This document shows, piece after piece, positions 5,981-29,370 of a stretch of DNA of 39,539 bases. The DNA is from Gemmatimonadaceae bacterium (lineage in GTDB: Bacteria > Gemmatimonadota > Gemmatimonadetes > Gemmatimonadales > Gemmatimonadaceae), in contig DATLUQ010000060.1 in NCBI GenBank assembly GCA_035533015.1, positions 1 to 39,539 on the forward strand. The letters are read 5' to 3'. A model generated the notes under the pieces. The model saw only the letters and a list, made by a program, of their open reading frames with translations. It did not search any database and was not told where the DNA came from. The translations under genes were made by a program, and so were the position numbers. Numbering within the stretch: the first letter of the stretch is position 1; every line of letters begins with the position of its first letter.

Positions 5981-6355
5981 CTAGCGCGGCGCGGGGGCCG
6001 CCGTCCGCGCCCCTGAGTCGCCGCGCAGCACCGCCCCGAGGGTGGCTCCTCCCCAGGCCAGCGCCAACGGAAACACGAACTCAACAGCGACCAGCCCCCA
6101 CAGCGGCACCTCCATCACCTTCGCGAGTGTCCGCGCGAACGGGATGGTGGGGGCACCCCCCGCGATCGGCGCCGCGAGCAGTACGGCCCAGCCGATCGCC
6201 GCCGCCAGCGCGGCGCGGACCGCGACGCGCGGCATACCCGGATTCATCGCACCCCAGATCACCCCAACCACTGCCACCGCCCACCACCCGAAGGCATACG
6301 TGCCCAGCGCGAACGCCGCGGCTACGAGCGCCAGTCTCACCAATCCGCGTATCAT
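5981..6355 (-). CDS. Small integral membrane protein of unknown function
   Basis: The 124-residue product has three or four hydrophobic helices (roughly 5-38, 45-70, 82-108) and an Arg/Pro/Ala tail. I do not recognise a family. The start ATG at 6355 overlaps the stop of the penicillin-acylase gene in an ATGA junction, and the gcdH start follows ten bases after its stop. It is therefore almost certainly translated with both neighbours. The coding strand keeps the high third-position GC of the surrounding genes, so it looks real and not an antisense shadow. Confidence 0.72.
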   Translation of the reverse strand: MIRGLVRLALVAAAFALGTYAFGWWAVAVVGVIWGAMNPGMPRVAVRAALAAAIGWAVLLAAPIAGGAPTIPFARTLAKVMEVPLWGLVAVEFVFPLALAWGGATLGAVLRGDSGARTAAPAPR

Positions 6356-8835
6356 CGCGGCCTCCCCGGCGTGAGAGTGAGCGTGGCGGTGGTGCGGTTG
6401 GCACCCAGGCTTGCCGCGTCCTTGGGCACCAGAGCAGGACTCAATCGGCCTGCCAACCACTGGGGAATGCGATTGTCGTATAGCGGGCTTGCCGGGTTCC
6501 CGCTCTGGCCGCCGGGATACGTGTCCCACGCCTTCACCTCGGGACCCAGGTCGACCACCATCCGCCAGCTCGGCCCATACCCCCCGTTTCCCGGCGCCGG
6601 ATTGAGCGTGCCACGTCCCCCGTCCATGATCAGTCCGCTCACCGAGAACGGCTTGATGCGGAGCACATGGTTGATGCTCACCTTGGCCGTGCTGTCCCAC
6701 CGCCAGCGCGCGCTGCCCGGCGGGCCGAGCCGGGTCACCAACGTGTCGTACGCCGCGCCGAGCGCGCGCACGAGCACCATGTCACGGGTCTCGGTGACCT
6801 GAGGGGTGGTCTTCTGATCCCACCAGAGGCTGTACGGCTGCTGCAGCAGTTCGAACATGATGTCGTCGCTCGGCGTCGCTACGCGGCGCCCCGTGGAATC
6901 GTCGAGTTCGTCCCACGTGTAGTCGCGCAGGTTCCGCATAGCCTGCTCGAACAGCACGGCCCCGTCGTTGTCGCGGGTGTAGCGACCGTCCCATTTCTTG
7001 AGGACCATCGCGGCCGCTACGATCGACGGCCGGGGTACCGCGCCAGCCACCGCACGGAGGAAGAACGGCAGGAACAGCTGAACGCGCACGCTGAGTGGAC
7101 TCATCTGGAAACGCCGCATGTCGTCCACCGTCACGCTCGAGTCCGCCCGCAGGAGCTGGTCGATGTCCAGCGCCCGCCACGGGTCCCACGCCCGATCGTC
7201 GCCGAGGTACGCGAACGCCTGCTTGGGATCCTCGGGCTGCTGGTTGGCCGAGGCCAAAAAGCCCTGCTTGGGATTGAACGCCTGGGGGTACTTGTCCACG
7301 GGCCAGTAGCCCGTCCAGTCGCTGGCGCTCGTCGAGCCGTCGAAGATGTCCAGTCCCGTGTGACCCTTGGGGCGGATCGGGAAATGCCCCGTGGAACGGA
7401 TGGCGATCGTGCCCTGGCGGTCGGCGGCGAGCACGTTCTGCGCCGGCACGAAGAACCCCAACGCCATGTCGTCCAGCAACTCTTTGGCCGACGTGGCGTG
7501 CGCCGCAGCATAGAACGCGCTGATCTCGTGCGACGGCTCCAGCAGCGTCCACCGCATGGACACCCACGCGCCGAACCGATGCATCAACGGACCGCGGCTC
7601 GTGTACCGCACGGTATCGGTGGCCAGCGTCTCGCCGTGCTTGCCGCGGTATACCTCGACGCGCTCCTCGAGCGGCTTCCATACGCCGTCCACCTCATACT
7701 TCGTGGGGTGAAGGGAGTCGTCCACCGTCTCGCGGTAGAAGTCGAGCACGTCGGCGCCCGTATTCGTGAACCCCCACGCCACGTCGCGATTGAACCCCAG
7801 CACGATGCCTGGGGCCCCGGGAATGGTCACGCCGTACACGTCGAGCTTGCCCGGTACGACCAGCTGAGTCTCGTACCAGATGCTCGGCAGCGTGAGGTCG
7901 AGGTGGGGGTCGTTGGCCAGCAGCGCGTGCCCGTCGGCACTGCGCGACGGAGCCACCGCCCAGTTGTTGCTCGCGAAGTGGCGCTGATCGGCGTCCGGCG
8001 TGGCCCCGGGCGGCTCGAGACTGCGCATCAATGCGGCCACGCGTGCCACCGCCGTGTCCGGACGCCCCGGCACCGGGATCTGTGCGAACTCGAACTCAGG
8101 TCCGCGCGCGCCGGTGGGCTGGAGCGGCTCCTGGATGGGCGAGTTGACGGGGAACAGGGCGGCGGCCGCGGCGTCGCCGACCTTGGCCGCCGCCGCGAGC
8201 CGTGCCGCCTCGTCAGGGATGTACGACAACGTCCATCCCATGCGGTTGAACAGGTGGATCGAATTGATCGGCTTCCAACGGTCGGGGCGAACGCCCAACA
8301 GCCGGTATTCCACCGGTACCTGCGAAGGCCGCATGCCGTCGATGTAGGCGTTCACGCCATCCGAGAACGCTTCCATGACGTGCCACGCCATCGACGTCGT
8401 GTCGATTCCGGCGAGTTTCTGCTCGGCGGCGCGGGGCATCCCGAGGTCTCGCGTCTCGCGGTCGAGTGACAGGGCCGCGGCGCCCACCCATTCCGTGAGG
8501 CGCCCCGACGCGGCGTGGGTCTGCAGGTCGAGTTGGAACAGTCGGTCGCGCGCCACGACGTAGCCCAGAGCGCGGTACGCGTCAGGTTCGGACGTGGCGA
8601 AGATGTGCGGCACGCCGCGATCATCGTACCGTACGTCCACCGCGCCCTGAAGGCCGGGAATCGTAGCGGCGGCCGTCCGGGGGAGGGTTGCATGCGAGGC
8701 GGCACCCCAGGCGCCGTTCACGGGGTCGAGCAGTTGCCCGAGCGGCGGGACTGGGCCGGCACCCCGGGCACCGAGCCACAGTGCCCCGCCGAACACCACG
8801 GCACCCGCCAGCGCGCGAACGATGCGTAGAATCAT
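6352..8835 (-). CDS. Penicillin acylase family N-terminal-nucleophile hydrolase
   Basis: The 827-residue precursor has a membrane or signal segment (residues 1-25) and an alpha-chain region containing RGVPHIFA and ARDRLFQLDLQTHAASGRL. The autoprocessing site has the nucleophile Ser289 in ASNNWAVAPSRS, followed by LANDPHLDLTLPSIWYE. Family members are exported, cleave themselves before this Ser, and hydrolyse amide bonds in beta-lactams, acyl-homoserine lactones or lipopeptides. The real substrate cannot be read from sequence. The gene follows the SprT-like gene by 30 bases and is coupled by ATGA to the small membrane protein downstream. The length is usual for the family. Confidence 0.92.
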   Translation of the reverse strand: MILRIVRALAGAVVFGGALWLGARGAGPVPPLGQLLDPVNGAWGAASHATLPRTAAATIPGLQGAVDVRYDDRGVPHIFATSEPDAYRALGYVVARDRLFQLDLQTHAASGRLTEWVGAAALSLDRETRDLGMPRAAEQKLAGIDTTSMAWHVMEAFSDGVNAYIDGMRPSQVPVEYRLLGVRPDRWKPINSIHLFNRMGWTLSYIPDEAARLAAAAKVGDAAAAALFPVNSPIQEPLQPTGARGPEFEFAQIPVPGRPDTAVARVAALMRSLEPPGATPDADQRHFASNNWAVAPSRSADGHALLANDPHLDLTLPSIWYETQLVVPGKLDVYGVTIPGAPGIVLGFNRDVAWGFTNTGADVLDFYRETVDDSLHPTKYEVDGVWKPLEERVEVYRGKHGETLATDTVRYTSRGPLMHRFGAWVSMRWTLLEPSHEISAFYAAAHATSAKELLDDMALGFFVPAQNVLAADRQGTIAIRSTGHFPIRPKGHTGLDIFDGSTSASDWTGYWPVDKYPQAFNPKQGFLASANQQPEDPKQAFAYLGDDRAWDPWRALDIDQLLRADSSVTVDDMRRFQMSPLSVRVQLFLPFFLRAVAGAVPRPSIVAAAMVLKKWDGRYTRDNDGAVLFEQAMRNLRDYTWDELDDSTGRRVATPSDDIMFELLQQPYSLWWDQKTTPQVTETRDMVLVRALGAAYDTLVTRLGPPGSARWRWDSTAKVSINHVLRIKPFSVSGLIMDGGRGTLNPAPGNGGYGPSWRMVVDLGPEVKAWDTYPGGQSGNPASPLYDNRIPQWLAGRLSPALVPKDAASLGANRTTATLTLTPGRPR

Positions 8836-11441: not shown

Positions 11442-12104
11442 CTACGGCGAAATGACGAGATCGGCGAAATGCGACGCCAGGCTGGCCAGGACCGCCGGCC
11501 CGAAGGTCGCCGCCGGATCGCTCTGGACCTCGTGGATCCACATGAACTCGGTGGTCCGCGCGTCCACCAGCACGAGCCGGAGCACGGCCCGTTCCATCGT
11601 TCCGTCCGCCATCTTCTCGAACCGCAGGTCCACCGGCAACATCACGTACCGGGCCCCGTCCTGCATTGCGATCATGGTCCGCAGTTGGCTGGCCAGCGGA
11701 TCACCGTAGAAGTGCCCGACTTCGATGCGCGCGCCCACCAGCGGGGTCTCGGCCAGCAGGTACGGGTTGGCGGCGTACGTGGAGTTGAGCCGGTAGGATT
11801 TCTCGAGGTCAGGAGCGAAGAACCAGGTGCCGCCGAGGCCCCGCGCGTCGAAGTCGGCCACGATCGCCGAATCGAGTTGGCGCAGCATGGCCCGCGGCTC
11901 CGCAATTCCCGCTGCCCAGCCCAGCGGATCACCGTGGGCCATGGCGAACACAGGCGCCACGATGATGCGTTGCGCGGCCAGGTTGGCCAGCGGCCGCACC
12001 ACCGGCGCCGGAGACGCTGGCGGCTGCTGCGCGTGCGAAACCGGCGTGGCACAGGCCACGACGGCGAGCGCGGCGACGATACTCGATACGCGGACGCGAG
12101 GCAT
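11442..12104 (-). CDS. Exported protein of unknown function
   Basis: The 220-residue protein has an Arg-containing start and a hydrophobic stretch ending either in a lipobox-like VVAC (Cys18) or in a signal-peptidase-I-like SHA-QQ site. The mature part contains PLANLAAQRIIVAPV and DARGLGGTWFFAP, followed by predicted beta strands. I do not recognise a family. No Shine-Dalgarno precedes the ATG. TAACTT lies about six bases upstream, which would fit a leaderless transcript. It heads the minus-strand run that continues with isocitrate dehydrogenase 28 nt downstream and is divergent from cstA. Confidence 0.78.
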   Translation of the reverse strand: MPRVRVSSIVAALAVVACATPVSHAQQPPASPAPVVRPLANLAAQRIIVAPVFAMAHGDPLGWAAGIAEPRAMLRQLDSAIVADFDARGLGGTWFFAPDLEKSYRLNSTYAANPYLLAETPLVGARIEVGHFYGDPLASQLRTMIAMQDGARYVMLPVDLRFEKMADGTMERAVLRLVLVDARTTEFMWIHEVQSDPAATFGPAVLASLASHFADLVISP

Positions 12105-12215
12105 GGAGGAAAGTTAATCCATTCGCGGGCCCACCGCCTCATCGGCCACCCTCTTCCCCCCGTACGCCCGCCATCCCATTTTGGCCCCGGCCTCATCCCC
12201 CGGAGTCATTCCGTC

Positions 12216-14279
12216 ATGTCGAAGCTGCTGCGCATTATCCTCTGGATAGTGGTCGCCGTGCTCGGCGCCGGTTCGCTCGCCTGGGTCGCGTTGGCCCACG
12301 GCGAGTCGATCAATGCCGCCTGGCTGCTCACCGCCGCCGTATGCACGTACCTGGTGGCGTTCCGGTTCTATGGCCGCTTCATCGCCAGCAAGGTGTTCGC
12401 GCTCGACGCCAATCGACGCACACCGGCAGAGCGGCTCGACGACGGGCGCGATTACGTGCCCACCAACAAGTGGATCGTGTTCGGACATCACTTTGCGGCC
12501 ATCGCCGGCCCCGGGCCACTCGTCGGGCCCACACTCGCCGCCCAGTTCGGCTACCTCCCCGGCGCTATCTGGATCATCGTCGGCGCCGTGCTGGGCGGCG
12601 CTGTGCAGGACTTCGTCATCCTCTGCGCGTCGGTGCGCCGAGATGGCAAGACGCTCGGACAGATGGCCAAGGAGGAGATCGGACCGGTGGCCGGCTACAC
12701 GGCCCTGGTCGCGGTGCTGGGCATCATGATCGTGCTGATCGCCGTGCTCGGCCTCGTCGTGGTCAACGCCCTCAAAGCGAGCCCCTGGGGCACGATCACC
12801 ATCGGGCTCACCGTCCCCATCGCCTTGCTCATGGGCGTGTACCTGCGCTGGATTCGGCCCGGCCGCGTCCTCGAAGCCAGTGCCATCGGACTCACGCTCC
12901 TCGTCGTGGCGCTGTACGCGGGCCGCTGGGTGGCCGAGGATCCGGCCCTGGCGGCCACGTTCACGCTGAGCGGCACGACGCTGGCCGTGATCGTGATGGG
13001 GTACGGATTCGCGGCGTCCGTGCTCCCGGTCTGGCTGTTGCTCGCACCCCGCGACTACCTCTCGGCGTTCGTGAAGATCGGGGTGGTGCTCACGCTGGGT
13101 ATCGGTATTCTCGTCGTGCTCCCGCCACTGCACATGCCGGCGCTCACGCGATTCACCGACGGCACGGGCCCCATCTTCGCCGGCAAAGTGTTCCCGTTCG
13201 CGTTCATCACGATCGCCTGCGGCGCCATCTCGGGGTTCCATGCGCTCATCGCGTCAGGGACCACACCCAAGCTGCTGCAGCGCGAGACCGACGCTCCGCT
13301 CATCGGCTACGGAGGCATGCTGATGGAGTCGTTCGTGGCGATCATGGCGTTGATCGCCGCCTGCGCACTCAGCCCAGGGGTGTTCTTCGCGATCAACGCT
13401 CCGGCCAGCGCGCTCGGCACCACCGTCCAGAGTGCCTCGGCGGCCGTGGCTCAGTGGGGATTCACCGTGTCACCCGCCGAGCTGACGCAGCTCGCCAAGA
13501 GTGTGGGAGAGACGACGCTGCTGTCGCGCACCGGGGGCGCGCCCAGCCTGGCCGTGGGCATGGCGCAGCTCTTCTCAGGGGCATTGAGTGGGGGCGGCGC
13601 GATGGCGCTCTGGTACCACTTTGCCATCATGTTCGAGGCCCTGTTCATCCTCACCACCCTCGACGCCGGCACGCGGGTGGGCCGGTTCATGTTGCAGGAT
13701 CTCGGACGTCACGTCTGGGAACCGTTCGGCCGCGTGTCCTGGTATCCCGCGGTGCTCCTCTCGAGCGCCATCTTCGTCGCGTTGTGGGGCCACTTTCTGT
13801 ACCAGGGCGTTATCGACCCGCTGGGCGGCATCAATTCGCTCTGGCCGCTGTTCGGCATCTCCAATCAACTGCTGGCTGCGGTAGCGCTGTGCGTGGGCAC
13901 GACCGTGATCATCAAGATGGGCAAGGCGCGCTACGCTTGGGTGACCCTCCTGCCGCTCGCCTGGCTGGTGGTCGTGACCATGGCGGCGGGGTGGGAAAAG
14001 ATGTTCTCGCCCGACCCGCACCTGGGGTTCATCGCTCACGCCTGGTCGCTGGGTGCCGCGATCGACGCCGGGGCACTCCCCGCCGGCGTCGCCACCGCCG
14101 CGGCCGGGCACCGCATGATGTTCAACGATTATCTGGATGCTGCCGTCGCCGCCTTCTTCATGGTGTCGGTGGTGGTCATCCTCGCCGACTCGATGCGCAG
14201 TTGGTACGGCGTGATCAGCGGGCGCGTGCCCGCCGTGTCTTCGGAAGTCCCGGCCGAACCGGCGACGACTGGCGGCTGA
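12216..14279 (+). CDS. cstA: Carbon starvation protein CstA, pyruvate/peptide transporter
   Basis: The 687-residue protein has about 16 to 18 hydrophobic segments and the classic CstA signatures: FYGRFIASKVFALD, DGRDYVPTNKWIVFGHHFAAIAGPGPLVGP split near residues 78-105, GAISGFHALIASGTTPKLL, and the C-terminal domain with NSLWPLFGISNQLLAAVAL. CstA proteins import pyruvate or peptides under carbon limitation. The ATG at 12216 has GGAG about ten bases upstream. The YbdD partner follows after a 258-nt gap. Expression is likely starvation-linked by analogy, but no CRP-like site is visible. Confidence 0.95.
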   Translation: MSKLLRIILWIVVAVLGAGSLAWVALAHGESINAAWLLTAAVCTYLVAFRFYGRFIASKVFALDANRRTPAERLDDGRDYVPTNKWIVFGHHFAAIAGPGPLVGPTLAAQFGYLPGAIWIIVGAVLGGAVQDFVILCASVRRDGKTLGQMAKEEIGPVAGYTALVAVLGIMIVLIAVLGLVVVNALKASPWGTITIGLTVPIALLMGVYLRWIRPGRVLEASAIGLTLLVVALYAGRWVAEDPALAATFTLSGTTLAVIVMGYGFAASVLPVWLLLAPRDYLSAFVKIGVVLTLGIGILVVLPPLHMPALTRFTDGTGPIFAGKVFPFAFITIACGAISGFHALIASGTTPKLLQRETDAPLIGYGGMLMESFVAIMALIAACALSPGVFFAINAPASALGTTVQSASAAVAQWGFTVSPAELTQLAKSVGETTLLSRTGGAPSLAVGMAQLFSGALSGGGAMALWYHFAIMFEALFILTTLDAGTRVGRFMLQDLGRHVWEPFGRVSWYPAVLLSSAIFVALWGHFLYQGVIDPLGGINSLWPLFGISNQLLAAVALCVGTTVIIKMGKARYAWVTLLPLAWLVVVTMAAGWEKMFSPDPHLGFIAHAWSLGAAIDAGALPAGVATAAAGHRMMFNDYLDAAVAAFFMVSVVVILADSMRSWYGVISGRVPAVSSEVPAEPATTGG

Positions 14280-15991: not shown

Positions 15992-16052
15992 GGGCGTGCG
16001 ATGAATCTACCACTTGCCAAACGGCAACGAACCTCCGCTGTATTGGAGCAGC

Positions 16053-17252
16053 ATGCACCTGTCTTCCCGACGACACGCCGACGCCTTCGCGGCGCTCGCT
16101 CCCGCGCGCGCTCATCTTGCCGCGCGCGACGAGGACGTGCTGCGCGTCCAGATCGCCGTGGCCCAAGTCGCGGCGCCCACCGGCGACGAGGGGGAACGGG
16201 CCGCATGGGTGCGAGACCGGTTTGCCGCGCTCGGCCTGGCTGGTGTGCGCATCGACGACGCCGGAAACGTCATCGGGCGCCGGCCGGGCCGCCGACCCGA
16301 CGACCCGGTCGTCGTCTGTGCACATCTCGACACGGTCTTTCCGCGTGGCACGCTGCTCACGGTGCGCCGTGACGGCCGCCGATTTTCCGGGCCCGGCATC
16401 ACCGACAACGGACGCGGCCTGGCCGTGATGCTCGCTCTGGCCGAGTCGATCGACGGGCGCGGTGTCCCCCTGGACCGGCCGGTGGAATTCGTGGGCACCA
16501 CCGGCGAGGAGGGCAATGGCGATCTGCGCGGTGTGAAACGCTACTTCGCCCGCCTCGCCGACCGGCCGGCCGGCATGATCGCCATCGACGGTGCTGGCGA
16601 CGAACGCATCATCCACCGCGCCCTCGGAAGTCGGCGCTATCGCGTCACCTTCAGTGGTCCGGGCGGACACAGTTGGGCGGCGTTCGGCGCACCCAACGCG
16701 ATTCACGCCGCGGCGGCGGCCACCGCGCGGCTGGCCGCCGTACCGCTCTCGACCATGCCACGGACCACGCTCAGCGTAGGGCGCATCGGTGGCGGGATTT
16801 CCGTGAACGCGATTCCCGACCACGCCTGGATCGAGCTCGACGTGCGATCGGCCGGTCCACGTATGCTCGACCGCCTCGAAGCGGAGGTGCACCGCGCCGT
16901 GGGAGCGGCGGCCGCCGAGGAGAACGCGCGCCGCTCGGAGAACACCGCCCCGCTCACCGCGACCGTCACGCGCATCGGAGACCGGCCCGGCGGTGAGACC
17001 GCGGCCGACCACCCACTGGTCGCGGCCGCCCAGGCAATCACGCAGTTGGCCGGCTGCGACCCGGAGTTGGCGATCGCATCCACGGACGCCAACGTGCCGA
17101 TCGGACTCGGGATTCCCGCAATCGCGATCGGCGGCGGCGGGCGCGGCGGCGGCGCGCATTCCGCGGCCGAGTGGTTCGAGAACGTGAACGGCACGCGCGG
17201 TGTGTCGCGCGCGCTGGCCATCGTGCTCGCCGCGTCGCACGCGGCCGGCTGA
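16053..17252 (+). CDS. M20 family zinc peptidase
   Basis: The 399-residue protein is a cytoplasmic M20 aminoacylase/aminopeptidase with the co-catalytic dizinc residues in place: His91 and Asp93 in CAHLDTVF, bridging Asp118 in GITDNGRG, Glu152-Glu153 in GTTGEEGNGD, Asp179 in IAIDGAG and His369 in GAHSAAEWF. The dimerisation domain lies around residues 190-300. It resembles peptidase T/tripeptidase-like or ArgE/DapE-like members, and the substrate is open. I prefer the ATG at 16053 with GGAG upstream over a TTG 39 bases earlier. Its stop directly abuts the convergent ABC permease stop with no gap. Confidence 0.9.
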   Translation: MHLSSRRHADAFAALAPARAHLAARDEDVLRVQIAVAQVAAPTGDEGERAAWVRDRFAALGLAGVRIDDAGNVIGRRPGRRPDDPVVVCAHLDTVFPRGTLLTVRRDGRRFSGPGITDNGRGLAVMLALAESIDGRGVPLDRPVEFVGTTGEEGNGDLRGVKRYFARLADRPAGMIAIDGAGDERIIHRALGSRRYRVTFSGPGGHSWAAFGAPNAIHAAAAATARLAAVPLSTMPRTTLSVGRIGGGISVNAIPDHAWIELDVRSAGPRMLDRLEAEVHRAVGAAAAEENARRSENTAPLTATVTRIGDRPGGETAADHPLVAAAQAITQLAGCDPELAIASTDANVPIGLGIPAIAIGGGGRGGGAHSAAEWFENVNGTRGVSRALAIVLAASHAAG

Positions 17253-19805: not shown

Positions 19806-20792
19806 CTACTCCGCGCGGAGCTCCGAGTGGTCGCCCACCGTGGCCTGCCCCGAGAATCCTTCGACCACGGCGCCGTCCCCGATCATCGAATCGTGGATCG
19901 TGCTGCGCACGATGCGCGCGTCCGTGCCCACGATCGTGTTGCGGAGCGCCGAGCCCTCGACCGTCGTCCCGGCGCCGATCGACACGTTCGGCCCGATCGT
20001 CGCGTTGCGCAGCGTGACCCCATCTTCCACGTACACCGGCTCCACGAACGCGACGTCGGCACCCGCCTTCGGGTGCCGCGCCATGCCACGCTTTTCCAGG
20101 ATCGTGCGGTTCGTCTCGAGCAACGTGTCGAGCTTGCCCGCGTCGTACCACCCCTCGACGTCGACCACGCGGATCTTCGCCCCGTGGTCGATCATGTACT
20201 GGAAGGCGTCGGTCAGGTAGTACTCCCCCTTGTTCTTCGGCGCCTTGAGGACGCGGTCGATCCCCTCGTACAGCAGCCTCCAATCGCGGACGTAGTAGAG
20301 CCCGATGTTGGCGCGCTTCGAGATCGGGGTCGAGGGCTTCTCCACGATCTTCGTCATATTGCCGTCGGCGTCGGTCACCACCACGCCGAACCGCTGGTAG
20401 TCCTCGACCTCTTTCGTCCAGATGATCCCATCGGCGTCGATCGTGTGGATCACCGACAGATCGGCGTCGAAGATGGTGTCCACGAACACGATCAGCACCG
20501 GCTGGTCCACGTACGGCGCGGCCAGCGCCACGGCGCCGGCCGTGCCATCCTGCACCGCTTGCTCGATGAAGACCGAGTCGAACGGATACTTACCGCGCGC
20601 GTACGCCTCGACCTTGTCCTTGAGGTGCCCCGTGATGTAGATGACCTGCTCCACCCCGCCCAGCCGCTGCAGATCGTCCATCAGGTAGTCGATCACCGGT
20701 TTGCCCGCGATCTTGAGCATGGGCTTCGGGGTGACGTGCGTGTGCGGACGGAGCCGCGTTCCCTTGCCCGCCAGTGGGATGATCACTTTCAT
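19806..20792 (-). CDS. Sugar-1-phosphate nucleotidyltransferase with left-handed beta-helix
   Basis: The 328-residue enzyme starts with the nucleotidyltransferase signature LAGKGTRLRPHTHVTPKPML (residues 7-26), where the Gly loop and Lys bind NTP and sugar phosphate. VFVDTIFD and EKPSTP follow. Residues from about 245 form hexapeptide repeats (for example VTLRNATIGPNVSIGAGTTVEG), as in glucose-1-phosphate thymidylyl- and GlmU-type enzymes. It makes an NDP-sugar for surface glycans; which nucleotide and sugar is not clear. It overlaps the cupin stop by four bases (ATGA). Confidence 0.9.
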   Translation of the reverse strand: MKVIIPLAGKGTRLRPHTHVTPKPMLKIAGKPVIDYLMDDLQRLGGVEQVIYITGHLKDKVEAYARGKYPFDSVFIEQAVQDGTAGAVALAAPYVDQPVLIVFVDTIFDADLSVIHTIDADGIIWTKEVEDYQRFGVVVTDADGNMTKIVEKPSTPISKRANIGLYYVRDWRLLYEGIDRVLKAPKNKGEYYLTDAFQYMIDHGAKIRVVDVEGWYDAGKLDTLLETNRTILEKRGMARHPKAGADVAFVEPVYVEDGVTLRNATIGPNVSIGAGTTVEGSALRNTIVGTDARIVRSTIHDSMIGDGAVVEGFSGQATVGDHSELRAE

Positions 20793-21190
20793 GGTGCGCT
20801 GGTCCCCTCGCGTCCGTAGCGGTCCTGCAGCCGGACGACGTCATCGAGATTCGCCGTGGAGGCTTCGAGAATGTCGCAATCGGTCACCGCTTCCATCTGG
20901 TGCACGGTGAACGGTGTGATGCGATAGGCCTCGCCAAGTTGGAGCTTCACGTCCACCGGCTTGGCGCCGGCCACCAACGCACCGGCCACCGCCGGCAGGT
21001 CCCACACCCGATAGATCAACTCACCCGAGAGTAGATAGACGGTCTCGTCCTTGACCTCGTGATACTGCACGGATAGCGCGTGACCCGCTCTGATGTGCAG
21101 AATCTTTCCGACGTAACGGTCGGAGTGGGCCCAGATCGTTTCATGCCCCCACGGTTTGGGCACGTGGGTGACGGGAGCGCGGCCGGACAT
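20789..21190 (-). CDS. Cupin protein, mannose-6-phosphate isomerase-like
   Basis: The 133-residue single cupin starts PKPWGHETIWA, the entry typical of type II phosphomannose isomerase/mannose-1-phosphate guanylyltransferase cupin domains. It has the metal motifs SVQYHEVKDETVYLLSGE and ITPFTVHQMEAV (His residues and Glu). It is coupled by ATGA to the nucleotidyltransferase, so together they may act in nucleotide-sugar supply, with the cupin as a sugar-phosphate isomerase or regulator. Activity is not proven by sequence. It is the first gene of the pair, divergent from the phosphatase across a 306-bp gap. Confidence 0.85.
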   Translation of the reverse strand: MSGRAPVTHVPKPWGHETIWAHSDRYVGKILHIRAGHALSVQYHEVKDETVYLLSGELIYRVWDLPAVAGALVAGAKPVDVKLQLGEAYRITPFTVHQMEAVTDCDILEASTANLDDVVRLQDRYGREGTSAP

Positions 21191-22221: not shown

Positions 22222-25200
22222 CTACCACAGATCCGCAAAACCAAATGTCCACCGCACCGCAATGGTTGCGTGGCCGTGCGTGAGTCCCCCGCCGCCAGCC
22301 AACGCCGGTTGCTGCACGATGAGCGGTGCATCCAGCCGGAATGTCACGTCGCGATCGTACAGGCGCCCGCGCAGCGCCAATCCCACGCCGGCGTCGGCCA
22401 GGAACGACCCGTTCAACTGATACGTATCGGACGAGGCAAAGCCGGCGTCCCCGAACAGCGAGCCCCAGAGCGACAGTTCGCTGAACACCTGGGTCGCCAA
22501 CCGCTGCGATAGTTCCCCGTTCGCGGCTACGATCCGCTTGGCCGTGAGCGCCTGATCGTAGCCGCGCAGCCCAGCGCCCCCCAGCGGCAGATAGTTCAGC
22601 CCCGGCCGCGTGAGAATCGATCCGTTGGGCCGGTACCAGTCGTTCTCGAAGTTGGCGAGCGGATCGGTCGCCGACACATGCAAGGCCCGCTGGGCGGGCG
22701 GGTCGTTGCTGAGACCGCCGTACAGCCGCAACGCCAGGCGCTCGTCGCCGGCATCCCACGTGTTCATGCTCCCGACCGCCAGTTCGACGCGCCCGTACGC
22801 GCTGGAAGCCCCTGCGAGCGTCGGCGTCGCGCCCTCGCCCAGGAAGCCGATTTGCGGTCCCTGCCCCGGGCTCGCGGGCGTGACCGGCCGATAGAGGTAC
22901 CGGTCGCTCGGTAGCGGCGAGAACCCCAATGCAACGTCGGCCACGACCGACACGTCCCCGTCTCCCGCGTCAAACGCCGCCGCCGGCGCGCGCAGGCTGA
23001 ACGCGCCGTTCACCTCGGTGAGCGACCGTCGCTCCCAGTAGGCCGGCACCATCGCCTGGTCATAGATGTAGGCGCCCACGGCGCCCAGCGTCGCCGACAT
23101 GCGCGGGCCGCGGGCCGTCCAGAGCGTGCTCAGGTCCCAGGTCTGGGCGAGGTCCAGCTTGGCGATGCCGTCGAGGAGCGCGCCGCCACCCTTCAATCCC
23201 ATCAGCGGACGATCGGCATCGGGGATATATGGATTTTCGAATCGCAACCACCCCTGCACGCGACTGATGCCCACGGGGACCGCGCCGGAGGCCGTCGCCC
23301 TCGATGCGCTCGTCACCGCGAGCCCGAAGTCGTACCGGTCCACCAGGTTCAGGTAGCTGGTCCGCGCTCGCATCCCCAGCGTCAGCGCCCCGGTCTCGGA
23401 ATACCAGACCAGCGGTGACAGGGCCACGAGGGAGTGATCGCGGCTGGCCTGGTCCAGGAATGGCCAGTCGAACACCGCCTGCGCGCCACTCAGCCCGAAC
23501 AGCGCTGGGCCCACCACGTCGTTCCGCCGGTCCCAATCGTACGTGGTGTGCCACGGGTCGAGCCGCACCTCGAGCGGTTTGCCCGCCGTCGTGATCGAGA
23601 CCGTCTGCTCGTCGGGCGCGTGGGCGCCTCGCGCGATCGTCCACCCGCTGTCGGTCCGCACCCCCACCGGCATCGGGTGCTCGTACGCGCCGCGGCGCAC
23701 GATCGTGGCCTGTGTGAGCCACCGGCCGTCCGGCTGCTGCGAGGTGGTGGCCTCCGTGAGCGCGTAGTCCACGAGGCCCACGCGGTGTACCCATTCGTCG
23801 AAGAACCAGTCCAGCTTCCGCCCAGACACCCGTTCGGCCGATGCCTCCATCGCCCGTTCGTCCACGTGCTTCAGTGCCCACCGATTGTAATAGTCGTGGA
23901 AGAACGCCTGGAACACGCTGTCGCCCAGCACGTCGCGCAGCTGCGAGTACATGAGTTCGCCACGGGTGTAGATCATGGCGTTGTACGTGCCGAAGTCACG
24001 GAAATCGTAGGCCGGGGTCCCGATGGGCTGGGTGTGCCCCTCGATATCGCGCTGCACCATGCCAAGTCCGCGCGCCTGCTCCGGCGACATCGTGGTGGCG
24101 TACGCGCGATAGCCCACGCCCAGCAGCGGCGGCATGGGCGGGCCCAGCTGGGCCAGTTGCTGCGGCGTCTGCCCCAGCGCCCACGACGTCTGGTACGACG
24201 TCAGCCCCTCGTCCATCCACCCCGAGCGCCACTCGTTGTTGGCCAGGATGCCGTACGTGAACTGATGCCCCGTCTCGTGCAGGATGAGCGGCAGCCCGTC
24301 GCTCCCGTCCATGATCATCATTGGGAACTCGGTGCCGCCCCCCTCCAGCCGGTGCAGGTTCGTGAACGTCGGCCAGGCGTAGGGGCCCCAGATCTTTTCC
24401 AGCCAGGCCAGCGCCTGGATGGACCGCCGCACGGCGATACCGTTTCCCCATGTAGAATCATCGCCGGGACGGTACAGGACATTCACGGCCACTGTGTCCC
24501 ATGTCTTGAAGTGGGTGCGCGGCACCCGCCGCACGAAGATCCCGCCTTCATATCGGTAGTCCGGCGACACCGACCACGCGAAATGGTGTACGTTGCGCGC
24601 GAAGAAGCGCACCGCCTTGTCCCCCTCCGGCAGCGCTGCCTCGGGCGCCGGTGGCACACTGTCATAGGCCTCGCGCGGGATGTACAACGTGCCCCACCGC
24701 TTCACCCTCTCCCACCCCGGATCTCCCGCCACCGGCACCCCCGTGGCGCCGATCACCTGGTCCGCCGCCACCACCAACGTCACGTCATACGTGCCGAACT
24801 CGCCGTAGAGTTCACCCGACGGCACGAACGGATTCGGCTCCCACCCGCCGCGATCGTACACGGCCACTTTGGGATACCACTGTGCGAAATCATAGCTCCG
24901 CCCCTTTCGCCCCTGGCGCCTGAGCACGGTGGACGGCCGCGCATCCCACTGCAGATGCACGCGGATCGAATCGCCCGGCGCCACCGGATGCGGGAGGGCG
25001 AAGTGCGCCACCGTGCTGTCGCTCGCGCCGGGGTAGTCCGGCGCCACCGGCACACCGTCGAACGTCGGCACGGCCGTGAATCGCTCGTAGCCAAAGTCCG
25101 GGTTCTGCAGGTCCTGGAACCGCACGCGCCCCTCGCGCTCGTCCACCGCGCTCCACTTGGATCCCGGACGAAACGCGTTCAGGTACTGGTGGAAGTACAT

Positions 25201-25401
25201 CTCGTGCAGGGTATCGGGCGAGTGGTTCACATACGTCAGGTCGGCCACCCCGTGCACCACGTGGGCCGCTTCGTCCAGCGTGGCCACGATCTGGTAATGC
25301 ACGTGTTGCTGCCAGTAGCCGACGGTGTCACCCGACGCGGGCGTCGTGTTGGCGCCCTGCTGGAAGGCGAGCAGGAGGGCACAGAGGGCGGTGGTCGTCA
25401 T
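22222..25401 (-). CDS. M1 family metallopeptidase fused to an Omp85-like beta-barrel
   Basis: The 1059-residue protein has a short signal peptide, an M1 N-terminal domain, and the gluzincin site HETGH with His375, Glu376, His379 and the third ligand Glu398 (HEXXH-X18-E). GGGTEFPMM near 355-362 stands in the place of the GxMEN motif. From about residue 640 the sequence changes to alternating amphipathic strands with an LRGY motif at 945-948, SLFGDAGF and LADAGVGLALRG, and ends WTFGFADLW with a terminal Trp. This is like the BamA/FhaC/D15 barrel, so the enzyme is probably anchored in the outer membrane. AAAGGA precedes the ATG. It is divergent from the zinc-ribbon gene. Confidence 0.88.
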   Translation of the reverse strand: MTTTALCALLLAFQQGANTTPASGDTVGYWQQHVHYQIVATLDEAAHVVHGVADLTYVNHSPDTLHEMYFHQYLNAFRPGSKWSAVDEREGRVRFQDLQNPDFGYERFTAVPTFDGVPVAPDYPGASDSTVAHFALPHPVAPGDSIRVHLQWDARPSTVLRRQGRKGRSYDFAQWYPKVAVYDRGGWEPNPFVPSGELYGEFGTYDVTLVVAADQVIGATGVPVAGDPGWERVKRWGTLYIPREAYDSVPPAPEAALPEGDKAVRFFARNVHHFAWSVSPDYRYEGGIFVRRVPRTHFKTWDTVAVNVLYRPGDDSTWGNGIAVRRSIQALAWLEKIWGPYAWPTFTNLHRLEGGGTEFPMMIMDGSDGLPLILHETGHQFTYGILANNEWRSGWMDEGLTSYQTSWALGQTPQQLAQLGPPMPPLLGVGYRAYATTMSPEQARGLGMVQRDIEGHTQPIGTPAYDFRDFGTYNAMIYTRGELMYSQLRDVLGDSVFQAFFHDYYNRWALKHVDERAMEASAERVSGRKLDWFFDEWVHRVGLVDYALTEATTSQQPDGRWLTQATIVRRGAYEHPMPVGVRTDSGWTIARGAHAPDEQTVSITTAGKPLEVRLDPWHTTYDWDRRNDVVGPALFGLSGAQAVFDWPFLDQASRDHSLVALSPLVWYSETGALTLGMRARTSYLNLVDRYDFGLAVTSASRATASGAVPVGISRVQGWLRFENPYIPDADRPLMGLKGGGALLDGIAKLDLAQTWDLSTLWTARGPRMSATLGAVGAYIYDQAMVPAYWERRSLTEVNGAFSLRAPAAAFDAGDGDVSVVADVALGFSPLPSDRYLYRPVTPASPGQGPQIGFLGEGATPTLAGASSAYGRVELAVGSMNTWDAGDERLALRLYGGLSNDPPAQRALHVSATDPLANFENDWYRPNGSILTRPGLNYLPLGGAGLRGYDQALTAKRIVAANGELSQRLATQVFSELSLWGSLFGDAGFASSDTYQLNGSFLADAGVGLALRGRLYDRDVTFRLDAPLIVQQPALAGGGGLTHGHATIAVRWTFGFADLW

Positions 25402-25462
25402 GATCCTTTAATCAAGAGCCTCTGGACGAGTCGCGGAATCTCGGTAATAGTAGACGGGAGAA

Positions 25463-26530
25463 ATGTACTCCACCTGCATCTTCTGTCACGCGCCGCTGGG
25501 CGACAACGACGCCATCGAGCACTTCCCGGTGGGGCGACGGCTCGCGTTCGACGCCGACAAGGGACGCCTGTGGGTGATCTGCGGCAGCTGCGCGCGCTGG
25601 AACCTCACCCCGCTCGACGAGCGATGGGAAGCGATCGAGGAGGCCGAGCGCATCTTTCGCGCCACCCGGATGCGTGTGACGACGCAGAACATCGGCCTCG
25701 CCCGGCTGGCGAGCGGCGTACAGCTCGTCCGCATCGGCAACCCACTGCGTCCCGAATTCGCCGCCTGGCGTTATGGCTCGCGGTTTGCTCGCCGGCGGCT
25801 CAACGTCCAGCTGGCGACGAGCCTCACGGCAGCGGCCGCGGGCATCGCCGGCATCGCGCTGGCCCCGGTACTCGTCCCAGCGCTCGTCACGAGCACGATG
25901 TCCATCGTCGCCTTTCCCGGCTTCACGACCATCGCCGGCGCGATCCCCGTGATCGGAGCACTCGCTGCCCGCGACTACCTCCTCGACGATCGTGTGGTGG
26001 CCCGGTTCCGGAAAGGCAGGCGGGTGCTCACGGTGCGCGCACGCCACACGCGCGACGCTGAGTTCCACGTCGCCGGCGACTACCCCACGCTGCGCCTGCC
26101 CCACGAGGACGGCTGGACGTATTTCGACGGCGGCGAGGCGCTGCACCTGGCCACCGTGCTGCTGGCCGGCGCTAACCGGTTCGGTGGGTCGAACGTCCGC
26201 GTGGGCGACGCGGTAGCCCGCATCGAGCGGGCGGGTGACGCATCCAATTTTCTCCGCGAGGCGTCGCGGGCCGTGGAGTGGCGTGAAGGCCGCGTGATGT
26301 CGGTGCTCAACAGCCTGCGCGGCTTCGGCGCGCTCCACCTCTCACCCACTGAATGCCTGGCCCTCGAGATGGCCATGCACGAGGAATCCGAGCGCCGGGC
26401 CCTGGAAGGCGAGCTTGATCTCCTGGCCGACGCGTGGCGCGAGGCCGAGCAGATCGCCGCCATCGCCGACAACCTGCTCACTCCCAGCGGATTCGAGGCG
26501 CTCAGCCGTTTGCGCCCATCGGAGGGGTAG
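25463..26530 (+). CDS. Zinc-ribbon membrane protein of unknown function
   Basis: The 355-residue protein opens with a four-cysteine zinc ribbon (Cys5, Cys8, Cys40, Cys43). A helical region and a hydrophobic block (about 117-172, probably two membrane passes) follow, then a soluble C-terminal part ending in a long acidic helix (MAMHEESERRALEGELDLLA). I do not recognise a named family. GGGAG precedes the ATG. Codon use matches its neighbours. The zinc ribbon at the very N-terminus suggests a cytoplasmic sensor or scaffold tied to the membrane, which is speculation. Confidence 0.75.
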   Translation: MYSTCIFCHAPLGDNDAIEHFPVGRRLAFDADKGRLWVICGSCARWNLTPLDERWEAIEEAERIFRATRMRVTTQNIGLARLASGVQLVRIGNPLRPEFAAWRYGSRFARRRLNVQLATSLTAAAAGIAGIALAPVLVPALVTSTMSIVAFPGFTTIAGAIPVIGALAARDYLLDDRVVARFRKGRRVLTVRARHTRDAEFHVAGDYPTLRLPHEDGWTYFDGGEALHLATVLLAGANRFGGSNVRVGDAVARIERAGDASNFLREASRAVEWREGRVMSVLNSLRGFGALHLSPTECLALEMAMHEESERRALEGELDLLADAWREAEQIAAIADNLLTPSGFEALSRLRPSEG

Positions 26531-26637: not shown

Positions 26638-29370
26638 CTATCGCCGATCGGGCTGGGGCGCCGCCACCACGGTGATCTGGTCGCCGTTCCCGGCCTTCCA
26701 CTCGCCGGCGTGCTTCACGTACAGATCCAGCCACGCCGTCCACCGCGCCCACTGGTCGAGCACCGTCTCGCGGATCAGCGGCCCGTGGTCTTCATATGGA
26801 TACATATATAGAGCCGCGGTCTTCCCGAGCGCCCGGAAGGCCTGCATCATCCGGATTGAACTGATCGGGTCGGTGCCCACGTTCTGGTCCTCGCTCGAGT
26901 GGTACATGAGCACCGCGCCCTGCACCTTGTCGGCGTAGAAGAACGGCGACATCTCCTCGTAGGTCTTCTGCGCCTCCCAGAAGCTGCGCCGCTCGTTCTG
27001 GAAGCCGTTGGGCGTGAGCGAGCGGTTGTACATGCCGTCGCCCGCGATCCCCGCCTTGAAGAACGGCGTGTGCGCCAATGCGTTCATCGTGCTGAACGCT
27101 CCGTAGCTGTGACCGCCAATGCCCAGCCGCGAACGGTCGATGTAGCCATCCTTGTCCAGCGCGTCGATCACCGCCGAGAGATCCATCACCAGGTCGGAAA
27201 CGTAGTTGTCGTTCATCCGCCCTTCGGCGCCCACGATCGGCGGGTCGAAGTCCACCACCGCGTAGCCCTGCGTCACCAGATACTCGATCGTTCTCGGCGC
27301 GGCCACGGGGAATTGATTCACGTTCTCCATCCGCAGCGTGTGGTCGTATTCCGTTTGGCTGGTGTACTCGTAGGGATAGAACCAGAACATCCCCGGCAGT
27401 CGAGTACCATCCTTGTAGCCGTCGGGCAGCGTCAGGTTCACCACGAAGTGGAATCCGTCGGCTCGCGTCACCTCGACGCGTTTGCGCACCGCGCTCGTGA
27501 ACTCCGGCGTGTAGTCCTTGTTGTCCGTGAGTCTGGTGAGCTGCCCGCCTTGCCGCGTCCACAGGTAGTCGTCGGGCACCTGTGTCTTCGTCTCCCGCAT
27601 CACCACCGCCCGCGCGAAGTCGTCGTCGAGCGGCGCCACGATCGTCTCCCACGCGTCGCTCGGCCCTTCGAAAACCCGGACTTTTTCGCCGCCCGCGATC
27701 GGGTACCGGTCCACGAACGTGCGCGGCGCGGTCTGGAGGAAATCCTTGGCATACTGGGTCCCCTGCAGATAGATCCCACCGTCCGGAGACTCCATCGCCA
27801 CTTCTCCACCTTGCGTGCCGCGGCGCAGCAGCATCGCGCCTGGATTGTTGTAGAACGCCGCGTCATCGACTCCACCGCGACCGCCGCCCCCGCCGAATCC
27901 GCGTCCGCGCCGTCCCGAGTTGAAGGTCGGCGTGAAGTCGCGTTGGTGGATGATCAGGTGCTTCTGGCCGGGCGCGGCGAGGTTCACCGCAAAGATTTCG
28001 CCCTGGCCGCTCACTGTCTGACCGATGAACAGCGTCTTGGCGTCGTCGCTCCATGCAAGCTGGCTGATCGCCCGGTCATTCGTGTAGACCACCTTGGCAT
28101 CATGCGGGCCGAACGGCGGCATCCACTCCACGACCCGCTCGGGACGGCTCGCCACGGCACCACCGCGGCCACCGCGCCCGCCCCCACCACCACCCATGCC
28201 GCGCCCCGCGCCGCTCGCGGAATCGCCCTCCGAGGCCACAGACTCCACGTAGTACATCCCGGCGCCCGCCGGCATCCAGTCCAGGAATTTCTTGCCCGGT
28301 GGGCCGTTGGCCCCGCCGCGGCCGCCGAATCCGGCGCCGGCCTGCGTGGTGTCCGGGCCCTCGCGCAGCGGACGATCCCACAACTCGACCACCGTCTTGC
28401 CTGTGGCGTCCCACAGTTGCTCCCTGGTGCCGAAGCTCGAATACTGCACGACGTACGAGAACGGCCGCTGCATGGTCGTCACGCGGAAGTACTGGCCGTC
28501 GGGCGACACGTCCACCGACTCGAACATTCCCGGCGCGCCGATCCTGCGGAACGCGTGCGTCTTCACGTTCACCACCGCCAGTTGCCCGGTCACGTAGTAC
28601 TGCATCAGGTCCTTGTCGTACGGCTCGTCGAGCAGGCTGGCGAAATTCCGCTGCGGCGATTTCACGCCGTCCTGCCACTCCCGAACCAGCGGCCCCGTGG
28701 CGACCTCTGGCATCCGGGGCTCCGGTCCGCGCGCGTCGGGCACGAACACCGCAACCACTCCGCTGCCGTCGGCTGTCCAATCGATGCTCGTGACTAGCGT
28801 GGCAAGCAGGGGGGACTTCGACACCTGCATCGACTTCCCGGTGGCGGCGTCGGCCACGTACACGTACGAGCCGTCGTCGAAGTCGGCGATGTAGGCCACC
28901 TGCCTGCCATCGGGCGACCAAACGGGCCCGCTCACGGCAGCGCCGTTGGGAAGCTGCACGGCCGTGCGCTTGCCCGTGGTGGCATCGACAATCGACAGCC
29001 CCGCCGACGCCCGCGTGGTGAGTGCCCGGGCGCGGTTGGCCTTGGGGTCCACCTGCAGCCCGCCAAAGTAGTAGTGGAACTTTCCGAACGCGTTCAGGTC
29101 GCCCATCCCGGGGCCTTCCAGGTCGAGAAAGTGCGTCCGGTCGGGGCTCAGAGCCGTGAGCGATACGTTCTGGTAGCGCGGTGCTGCAACCAGCTTCTCG
29201 ATCTCGGGGGGCGGCGTGACGTACGTCTCCTTGGCCAGGAGCGCGCGATCGGCCGCGATCTGTCGGGCAAGGTCCTGTCGCTGCGCGTGGAGAATCTGTG
29301 CCGTGAACACCACGGCGAGCAGGCCGCGGGGGACGACGCGGCGGAGGCGGAAAGAGGAGAGCCGGGCCAT
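26638..29370 (-). CDS. S9 prolyl-oligopeptidase family serine peptidase, glutamyl endopeptidase-like
   Basis: The 910-residue exported protein has a basic signal peptide ending near LHA (residues 1-29), a beta-propeller-like region with repeated SPDGRQVAYIA-type blades, and a C-terminal alpha/beta-hydrolase domain. The catalytic triad is Ser755 in GGHSYG, Asp828 in HSSEDQN and His862 in YEDHGP. The stretch YNRSLTPNGFQNERRSFWEA is like the plant chloroplast glutamyl endopeptidase/S9D group. Three Gly/Arg-rich inserts (345-359, 387-406, 486-500) interrupt the propeller. GAGG precedes the ATG. It is divergent from uppP and likely periplasmic or surface-exposed. Confidence 0.92.
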   Translation of the reverse strand: MARLSSFRLRRVVPRGLLAVVFTAQILHAQRQDLARQIAADRALLAKETYVTPPPEIEKLVAAPRYQNVSLTALSPDRTHFLDLEGPGMGDLNAFGKFHYYFGGLQVDPKANRARALTTRASAGLSIVDATTGKRTAVQLPNGAAVSGPVWSPDGRQVAYIADFDDGSYVYVADAATGKSMQVSKSPLLATLVTSIDWTADGSGVVAVFVPDARGPEPRMPEVATGPLVREWQDGVKSPQRNFASLLDEPYDKDLMQYYVTGQLAVVNVKTHAFRRIGAPGMFESVDVSPDGQYFRVTTMQRPFSYVVQYSSFGTREQLWDATGKTVVELWDRPLREGPDTTQAGAGFGGRGGANGPPGKKFLDWMPAGAGMYYVESVASEGDSASGAGRGMGGGGGGRGGRGGAVASRPERVVEWMPPFGPHDAKVVYTNDRAISQLAWSDDAKTLFIGQTVSGQGEIFAVNLAAPGQKHLIIHQRDFTPTFNSGRRGRGFGGGGGRGGVDDAAFYNNPGAMLLRRGTQGGEVAMESPDGGIYLQGTQYAKDFLQTAPRTFVDRYPIAGGEKVRVFEGPSDAWETIVAPLDDDFARAVVMRETKTQVPDDYLWTRQGGQLTRLTDNKDYTPEFTSAVRKRVEVTRADGFHFVVNLTLPDGYKDGTRLPGMFWFYPYEYTSQTEYDHTLRMENVNQFPVAAPRTIEYLVTQGYAVVDFDPPIVGAEGRMNDNYVSDLVMDLSAVIDALDKDGYIDRSRLGIGGHSYGAFSTMNALAHTPFFKAGIAGDGMYNRSLTPNGFQNERRSFWEAQKTYEEMSPFFYADKVQGAVLMYHSSEDQNVGTDPISSIRMMQAFRALGKTAALYMYPYEDHGPLIRETVLDQWARWTAWLDLYVKHAGEWKAGNGDQITVVAAPQPDRR

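Follow-up and report, generated by a model that had tools for sequence, protein, structure and literature searches.

An M1 peptidase and a predicted POTRA-less, Omp85-type barrel share one polypeptide in Gemmatimonadota

We analyzed a 39,539-nucleotide stretch of DNA (contig DATLUQ010000060.1, positions 1 to 39,539 of the forward strand; here called the window) from the Gemmatimonadaceae assembly GCA_035533015.1, a 3.03 Mb draft of 66 contigs from a soil bacterium; in the public collection, the genomes close to it are metagenome-assembled ones from Gemmatimonadota. A minus-strand gene in this window (22222-25401) encodes a single protein of 1059 amino acids in which an M1-family zinc peptidase module precedes a predicted 16-strand barrel of the Omp85 type. 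The open reading frame begins with ATG and comprises 1059 codons plus a stop, and the plus strand of the same interval is broken by stops in the matching frame. An original prediction, made from the letters of the window, had placed an M1 metallopeptidase and an Omp85/BamA-like barrel in one polypeptide, a view borne out by 16-strand models and by matches of the barrel to FhaC, BamA, TamA, and Sam50. Literature searches of open-licence papers returned no M1-Omp85 protein, and we found no description of an M1 enzyme module on a POTRA-less Omp85-type barrel that lies below Pfam detection.

The M1 module is intact as judged from its sequence. Peptidase_M1 (PF01433) matched residues 372-537 with 51.1 bits (cut-off, 27.7; E 1.8e-13). 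The full gluzincin site that had been read from the sequence, HETGH-X18-E, is indeed there, with HETGH at residues 375-379 and the third zinc ligand, E398, exactly 18 residues further. In the alignment of 20 full-length homologues, H375, E376, H379, and E398 are invariant, as are E358 and Y478. The homologue profile matched the cold-active aminopeptidase 3cia (2.3e-10); there, GGGTEFP lies opposite GGMENP, IYTRG lies opposite PYVKG, and Y478 corresponds to the Y of YVKG. The GxMEN exopeptidase motif is represented by its aligned and invariant Glu (E358), and its Asn is not there. Foldseek comparison of the full-length model retrieved ERAP1, IRAP, and aminopeptidase N at E ~1e-19. In the model, the M1 part extends to about residue 620 and consists of an N-terminal beta domain, which is the best-conserved region of the protein, the catalytic domain, and a beta-sandwich. 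Collectively, the M1 site points to aminopeptidase activity.

Structure prediction, proposed with the original prediction as a check, consisted of two ColabFold runs, one on the full-length protein (predicted template modeling score [pTM], 0.64) and one on residues 620-1059 alone (pTM, 0.74). Both models contain sixteen strands after residue 657 (658-667, 673-684, 687-701, 710-723, 735-743, 746-756, 767-779, 794-806, 814-828, 867-882, 887-899, 956-969, 977-991, 996-1014, 1017-1029, and 1050-1055). The longest loop, residues 900-955, lies between strands 11 and 12, the position of L6 in BamA; it includes LRGY and bears a family-specific stretch of ~30 residues, GADP..F.NP..R..GA. The LRGY (945-948), (F)GDAG (983-987), and DAGVGL (1003-1008) segments and the C-terminal Trp cited in the original prediction were all found. 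The chain ends in ...FADLW, and the last residue is W or F in most homologues. Among PDB structures, the top-ranked Foldseek matches of the barrel were BamA of F. johnsoniae (2.6e-7), BamA of B. thetaiotaomicron, Sam50, CdiB, and TamA (2.6e-7 to 1e-4). VIA-align gave Z scores of 17.4 for FhaC, 16.7 for D. radiodurans BamA, 16.5 for TamA, and 16.2 for a Sam50 complex, and its 50 best rows were nearly all Omp85/TpsB/Sam50 chains. Residue alternation within the strands was 2.38, versus 1.36 +/- 0.24 in 2000 within-strand shuffles, all of which it exceeded; since the strands were picked from the model, this supports amphipathic strands and not a particular fold. According to these models, the C-terminal region is a 16-strand Omp85-type barrel whose nearest folds are FhaC, BamA, TamA, and Sam50.

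Several results weigh against this assignment. The models, built from 20-21 sequences, have a mean predicted local distance difference test score (pLDDT) of only ~70, which is medium confidence; the L6 loop is poorly modelled (pLDDT, 35-41); and the TM-scores against solved barrels, normalized by model length, are a modest 0.3-0.4. In addition, the porin OpdQ also reaches a VIA-align Z of 14.7, and PF01103 (Omp85/D15) was unmatched by all 20 of 20 members even at E 1. The last two results would also fit a porin-like barrel of 16 or 18 strands with no special relation to Omp85. We consider that reading very improbable, given the makeup of the best VIA-align rows, a profile relation that is specific to Omp85, the long strand 11-12 loop with its RG(Y/F) motif, and bridge proteins that match both profiles.

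The profile relation needed a sensitive comparison to emerge. No family in Pfam, NCBIfam, or PADLOC scans matched the barrel region, and the barrel profile had no match among PDB sequences. Because PF01103 was unmatched, we refer to an Omp85-type barrel, a divergent branch, and not to a PF01103 member; a search against the D15 family, the second check put forward originally, gave nothing, and the homology of the barrel to Omp85, for which the sequence profiles argue, is detectable solely by profile-profile comparison. For this we used hhalign in local mode without realignment; the default realignment gave only a meaningless 8-column match. The barrel family matched Omp85 sets of the same order with P 3.4e-7 to 3.4e-5, depending on the set, and the controls gave P 0.2-0.5 for reversed profiles and 0.11 for 25 TonB receptors of the same order. 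When the C-terminal 200 residues and a set headed by E. coli BamA were forced to align end to end, LFGDAG fell on FFWDMG and DAGVGL on SAGIAL. The VRGF of BamA fell on the earlier GADP..F.NP..R..GA stretch and not on LRGY, which sits inside the poorly modelled loop and whose R946 is invariant in the 20 homologues. Two bridge proteins tie the families together: L165 (570 aa) exceeds the PF01103 cut-off and matches the barrel profile at 2e-5, and L210 (593 aa; L210:1662-3440) falls short of PF01103 (22.8 bits; cut-off, 24) but fits the barrel profile at 3e-8.

Related proteins of other layouts were also seen. L209:986-3868 and L210 carry a weak bactofilin-like N-terminal region and an Omp85-type barrel, and together with L165 they link PF01103 to the barrel family. 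Stand-alone proteins of 450-520 aa in another family of the class (L205:2472-3854, L206:2210-3772, L207:2683-4095, and L208:2150-3499) hit the barrel profile, at values as low as 1e-16, and hit nothing in Pfam; the GADP...N-P...G-A-L stretch recurs in them, together with an LRAY motif.

The fusion is conserved. Other genomes carry the entire 1059-aa architecture, at identities from 70% to as low as ~37%. A whole-protein search found a strong match in half of the 60 nearest genomes (30/60), the barrel profile at 1e-5 or better hit 57 of 249 sampled genomes of the phylum, mostly in open frames of ~1000 aa, and fusions of 1061-1159 aa occur in other families of the class (L201-L204). Across the order Gemmatimonadales, the fusion was found at one syntenic locus. 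Although the source is a 66-contig draft, an assembly artefact or a chance fusion of adjacent genes has a negligible probability and is refuted, since dozens of independent assemblies contain the fusion at full length, at identities as low as ~37%. In the scan of genome contigs, all barrel-bearing relatives were Gemmatimonadota, the barrel was absent from 53 more distant M1 relatives (other phyla and some divergent Gemmatimonadetes paralogues), and plasmid matches were M1 only, with no barrel. In more distant homologues, the barrel is the least conserved part, at ~25% identity versus 41-58% for the M1 part.

We then considered whether the modules travel apart. Downstream of the M1 gene, genes for a cupin and a nucleotidyltransferase are found in most loci that extend far enough (~60 loci). 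Five orthologues of 641-841 aa (L018, L019, L020, L036, and L037) lack the barrel and adjoin the same cupin gene. We rejected an explanation by a conserved operon: the neighbors are conserved, yet they stand beside barrel-less orthologues too and are thus uninformative about the barrel. In a tree of the M1 domain, these five orthologues form one clade nested within the barrel-bearing group (support, 0.93), for which one loss of the barrel is the simplest reading of the sequences; two more distant short proteins, L058 and L059, have no firm position (support, 0.04). The nesting of these orthologues, which occupy the same locus, means that the enzyme module persists without the barrel too. The barrel is not an ordinary M1 C-terminal domain, the outcome that the original prediction had set against itself, but is added beyond the M1 beta-sandwich and is missing from these orthologues. 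In some genomes, barrel-only genes of ~460-470 aa adjoin the fusion (L215:6108-7493, minus strand; L052; L047). The M1 and barrel modules are separable but usually kept together. A separate observation concerns L214:2584-4302 (minus strand, genome G239), where the N-terminal stub of the fusion (SGYRQQEVRYLVHARLDESTGTL) is joined straight to the barrel and the whole M1 domain is missing; this is either a natural deletion or an assembly join.

The models also bear on topology. With a periplasmic N terminus, the outward-facing loops would have 5, 8, 2, 14, 38, 56, 4, and 20 residues (mean, 18; n = 8), and the opposite turns have 2, 11, 10, 7, 4, 7, and 2 residues (mean, 6; n = 7). Long loops on the putative outer side are the usual outer-membrane pattern, and both termini would therefore be periplasmic, with the M1 domain in the periplasm. 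No POTRA family was found in Pfam at E 1, and in the model the stretch from the beta-sandwich to strand 1 is a linker that shows no POTRA-like fold. The homologues L020, L021, and L037 begin with clear Sec signal peptides, and by these sequences export is likely Sec-dependent. As modelled, the enzyme domain probably lies under the outer membrane rather than being exported.

We favor, as reasonably probable, an outer-membrane-anchored periplasmic zinc exopeptidase that acts on peptides at the inner face of the outer membrane. The chain would cross the inner membrane via its Sec-type signal, and BAM would insert the C-terminal 16-strand barrel into the outer membrane by way of the aromatic C-terminal strand, leaving both barrel ends facing the periplasm. 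The N-terminal M1 module would fold and stay in the periplasm directly below the barrel, with a ~40-residue linker in place of POTRA domains, and would trim N-terminal residues from peptides, most likely peptides taken up from soil. Two findings count against such an anchored enzyme: the signal segment of the fusion protein itself is short and hydrophobic, without a basic n-region, and one clade has lost its barrel, so that some species evidently do without the anchor.

The original prediction left it open whether the peptidase was tethered or self-exported. Tethering fits the data; self-export, in which a type Vd-like barrel would move its own M1 domain to the surface for the digestion of extracellular peptides, found no support from topology or precedent, and we regard it as distinctly improbable. 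That reading has history on its side: PlpD, with its enzyme N-terminal to an Omp85 barrel, was first interpreted in this way (Salacha 2010, as cited in a passage of PMC4104836), and aminopeptidase passengers of ordinary autotransporters exist, as one is described in PMC3426542. However, the patatin domain of this archetype, first thought to be secreted, was on re-examination shown to be exclusively periplasmic, and passage of a folded 31-kDa domain through a finished barrel was argued to be unfavorable (PMC11116518). Here, the N-terminal module exceeds 600 residues, and the loop lengths place the N terminus in the periplasm.

Alternatively, the protein could be a biogenesis or quality-control factor whose barrel keeps a BamA/TamA-like assembly role while the M1 module trims or clears misfolded or stalled outer-membrane proteins. 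Such a role would suit a barrel of Omp85 type in which R946 is conserved and strand 13 has an FxDxG-like motif, and periplasmic quality control was proposed for the "Metallo" Omp85 class in a passage by the survey authors (PMC4104836). We nevertheless think it quite unlikely, as no POTRA domain was found and the genome already encodes BamA and a second POTRA-type Omp85. M1 enzymes attack peptides at their N termini and do not act on folded proteins, and the low conservation of the barrel relative to the M1 part also speaks against an assembly function.

A peptide uptake device would have an anatomy identical to that of the anchored exopeptidase: the barrel would be a gated pore, and the M1 module at its periplasmic mouth would trim entering peptides, coupling import to digestion. 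Further peptidase genes in the window (S9, 26638-29370; M20/M28, 16014-17252) agree with this proposal, which we consider unlikely. An Omp85 barrel that holds L6 in its interior is usually close to shut, some orthologues have no barrel, and the neighboring peptidase genes are not consistently conserved beside the fusion. In its boldest form, which we offer as a doubtful speculation, the POTRA-less barrel would import peptides through its pore and carry its own periplasmic aminopeptidase to clip them on arrival, which would give Gemmatimonadota a TonB-independent way to scavenge peptides with a single chain.

Positions of the fusion gene, its domains and motifs, and two conserved neighbors in the window
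Feature	Coordinates	Strand	Basis
Whole gene, M1 peptidase - Omp85-type barrel fusion, 1059 aa	22222..25401	-	Open reading frame, Pfam, two models
Export signal-like N-terminal segment, residues 1-20, MTTTALCALLLAFQQGANTT	25342..25401	-	Sequence; model helix 3-14
M1 N-terminal beta domain, residues 29-310	24472..25317	-	Alignment, model, Foldseek
M1 catalytic (thermolysin-like) domain, residues 311-540	23782..24471	-	Pfam PF01433 372-537; Foldseek to ERAP1/IRAP/aminopeptidase N
GGGTEFP, residues 354-360	24322..24342	-	Aligned with GGMENP of 3cia; E358 invariant
Zinc site HETGH-X18-E, residues 375-398	24208..24279	-	H375, E376, H379, E398 invariant
Y478	23968..23970	-	Aligned with Tyr of M1 "Y.KG" motif; invariant
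Beta-sandwich after catalytic domain, residues 541-620, place of M1 domain III	23542..23781	-	Model
Linker, residues 621-657, no POTRA found	23431..23541	-	Pfam, model
Predicted 16-strand Omp85-type beta-barrel, residues 658-1059	22225..23430	-	Models, structure matches, profile-profile comparison
Long loop between strands 11 and 12, residues 900-955, place of BamA loop L6	22537..22704	-	Models, alignment
LRGY, residues 945-948	22558..22569	-	R946 invariant in 20-sequence alignment
FGDAG, residues 983-987, strand 13	22441..22455	-	Aligned with FFWDMG of E. coli BamA
DAGVGL, residues 1003-1008, strand 14	22378..22395	-	Aligned with SAGIAL of E. coli BamA
Last strand with C-terminal aromatic (W), beta-signal-like	22225..22254	-	Model; homologues mostly W or F
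Cupin-like gene, downstream neighbor, outside fusion protein	20789..21190	-	Conserved across order
Nucleotidyltransferase with hexapeptide repeats, neighbor, outside fusion protein	19806..20792	-	Conserved across order

Elsewhere in the window are genes for a penicillin-amidase-family protein (6352-8835, minus strand) and a CstA-family (peptide/carbon starvation) transporter (11469-14279, plus strand); the M20/M28 peptidase is encoded on the plus strand and the S9 peptidase, of the prolyl-oligopeptidase family, on the minus strand. Together, these four genes hint at a peptide-using life style. Divergent from the fusion gene, with ~60 bases between them, lies a conserved gene of 355 aa (25463-26530, plus strand) that has no Pfam match and is 55-81% identical in near relatives. 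A minus-strand open reading frame at 25412-26338 is probably an antisense shadow of this better-conserved gene.

The M1 part of the fusion resembles M1 aminopeptidases (3cia, aminopeptidase N, and ERAP1) in its HEXXH-X18-E site, the Glu of GxMEN, and the catalytic-Tyr region, as well as in the succession of a beta domain, a thermolysin-like domain, and a beta-sandwich. Aminopeptidase N and ERAP1 have an alpha-helical domain IV, whereas the fusion has the barrel in that place, and GGGTEFP replaces GGMEN. Classical autotransporter barrels are 12-stranded and unrelated to Omp85. The arginine-specific aminopeptidase autotransporter of P. aeruginosa is like the fusion in joining an aminopeptidase to an outer-membrane barrel, but it is described as a classical autotransporter (PMC3426542).

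A second kind of peptidase-like Omp85 fusion, of ~1150-1270 aa, also occurs in Gemmatimonadota (L167:2277-5711, plus strand; L168:1768-5583, plus strand; L170:5056-8607, minus strand). Its order is an HExxH...E region with weak peptidase-MA/M9/DUF6055-type matches, a PD40 beta-propeller, and a C-terminal barrel that exceeds the PF01103 cut-off. Among known enzyme partners of Omp85 barrels is PF00149, which we take to be the calcineurin-like phosphoesterase family and not a peptidase. The passages of the 2014 Omp85/TpsB survey (Heinz and Lithgow) that define ten subfamilies include patatin, PF00149 "Metallo," WD40, and no-N-terminus types and no M1 type; the passage on the WD40-Omp85 class mentions no peptidase part (PMC4104836). 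By these passages, the "Metallo" and "noNterm" subfamilies share with the fusion a POTRA-less barrel, with or without an N-terminal metal-dependent enzyme, whereas the "Metallo" domain is PF00149, and M1 falls outside the ten classes (PMC4104836).

Omp85 proteins were long viewed as POTRA-bearing machines for assembly or translocation; in 2024, PlpD gave the example of this scaffold bearing an enzyme in the periplasm. A conserved POTRA-less M1 version, with natural barrel-less and peptidase-less relatives, would be a second enzymatic Omp85 branch, and one overlooked by standard domain annotation, in which Pfam reports only the peptidase. With the M1 fusion, one can also ask directly if an Omp85 barrel is able to act simply as an anchor in the outer membrane or as a pore that serves its own enzyme. 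The closest mechanistic parallel appears to be PlpD and its PL-Omp85 class (patatin - POTRA - Omp85 barrel, "type Vd"), of which the same genome encodes a 734-aa member (L247:3175-5379, plus strand; G000:C51). In both proteins, a single chain carries a hydrolase ahead of a 16-strand Omp85 barrel at its C terminus, and the enzyme domain, periplasmic in PlpD, is expected to be so in the M1 fusion from its modelled loop lengths. They differ in that the M1 fusion has an M1 zinc peptidase instead of patatin, has no POTRA domain, and has a barrel that is too diverged for PF01103.

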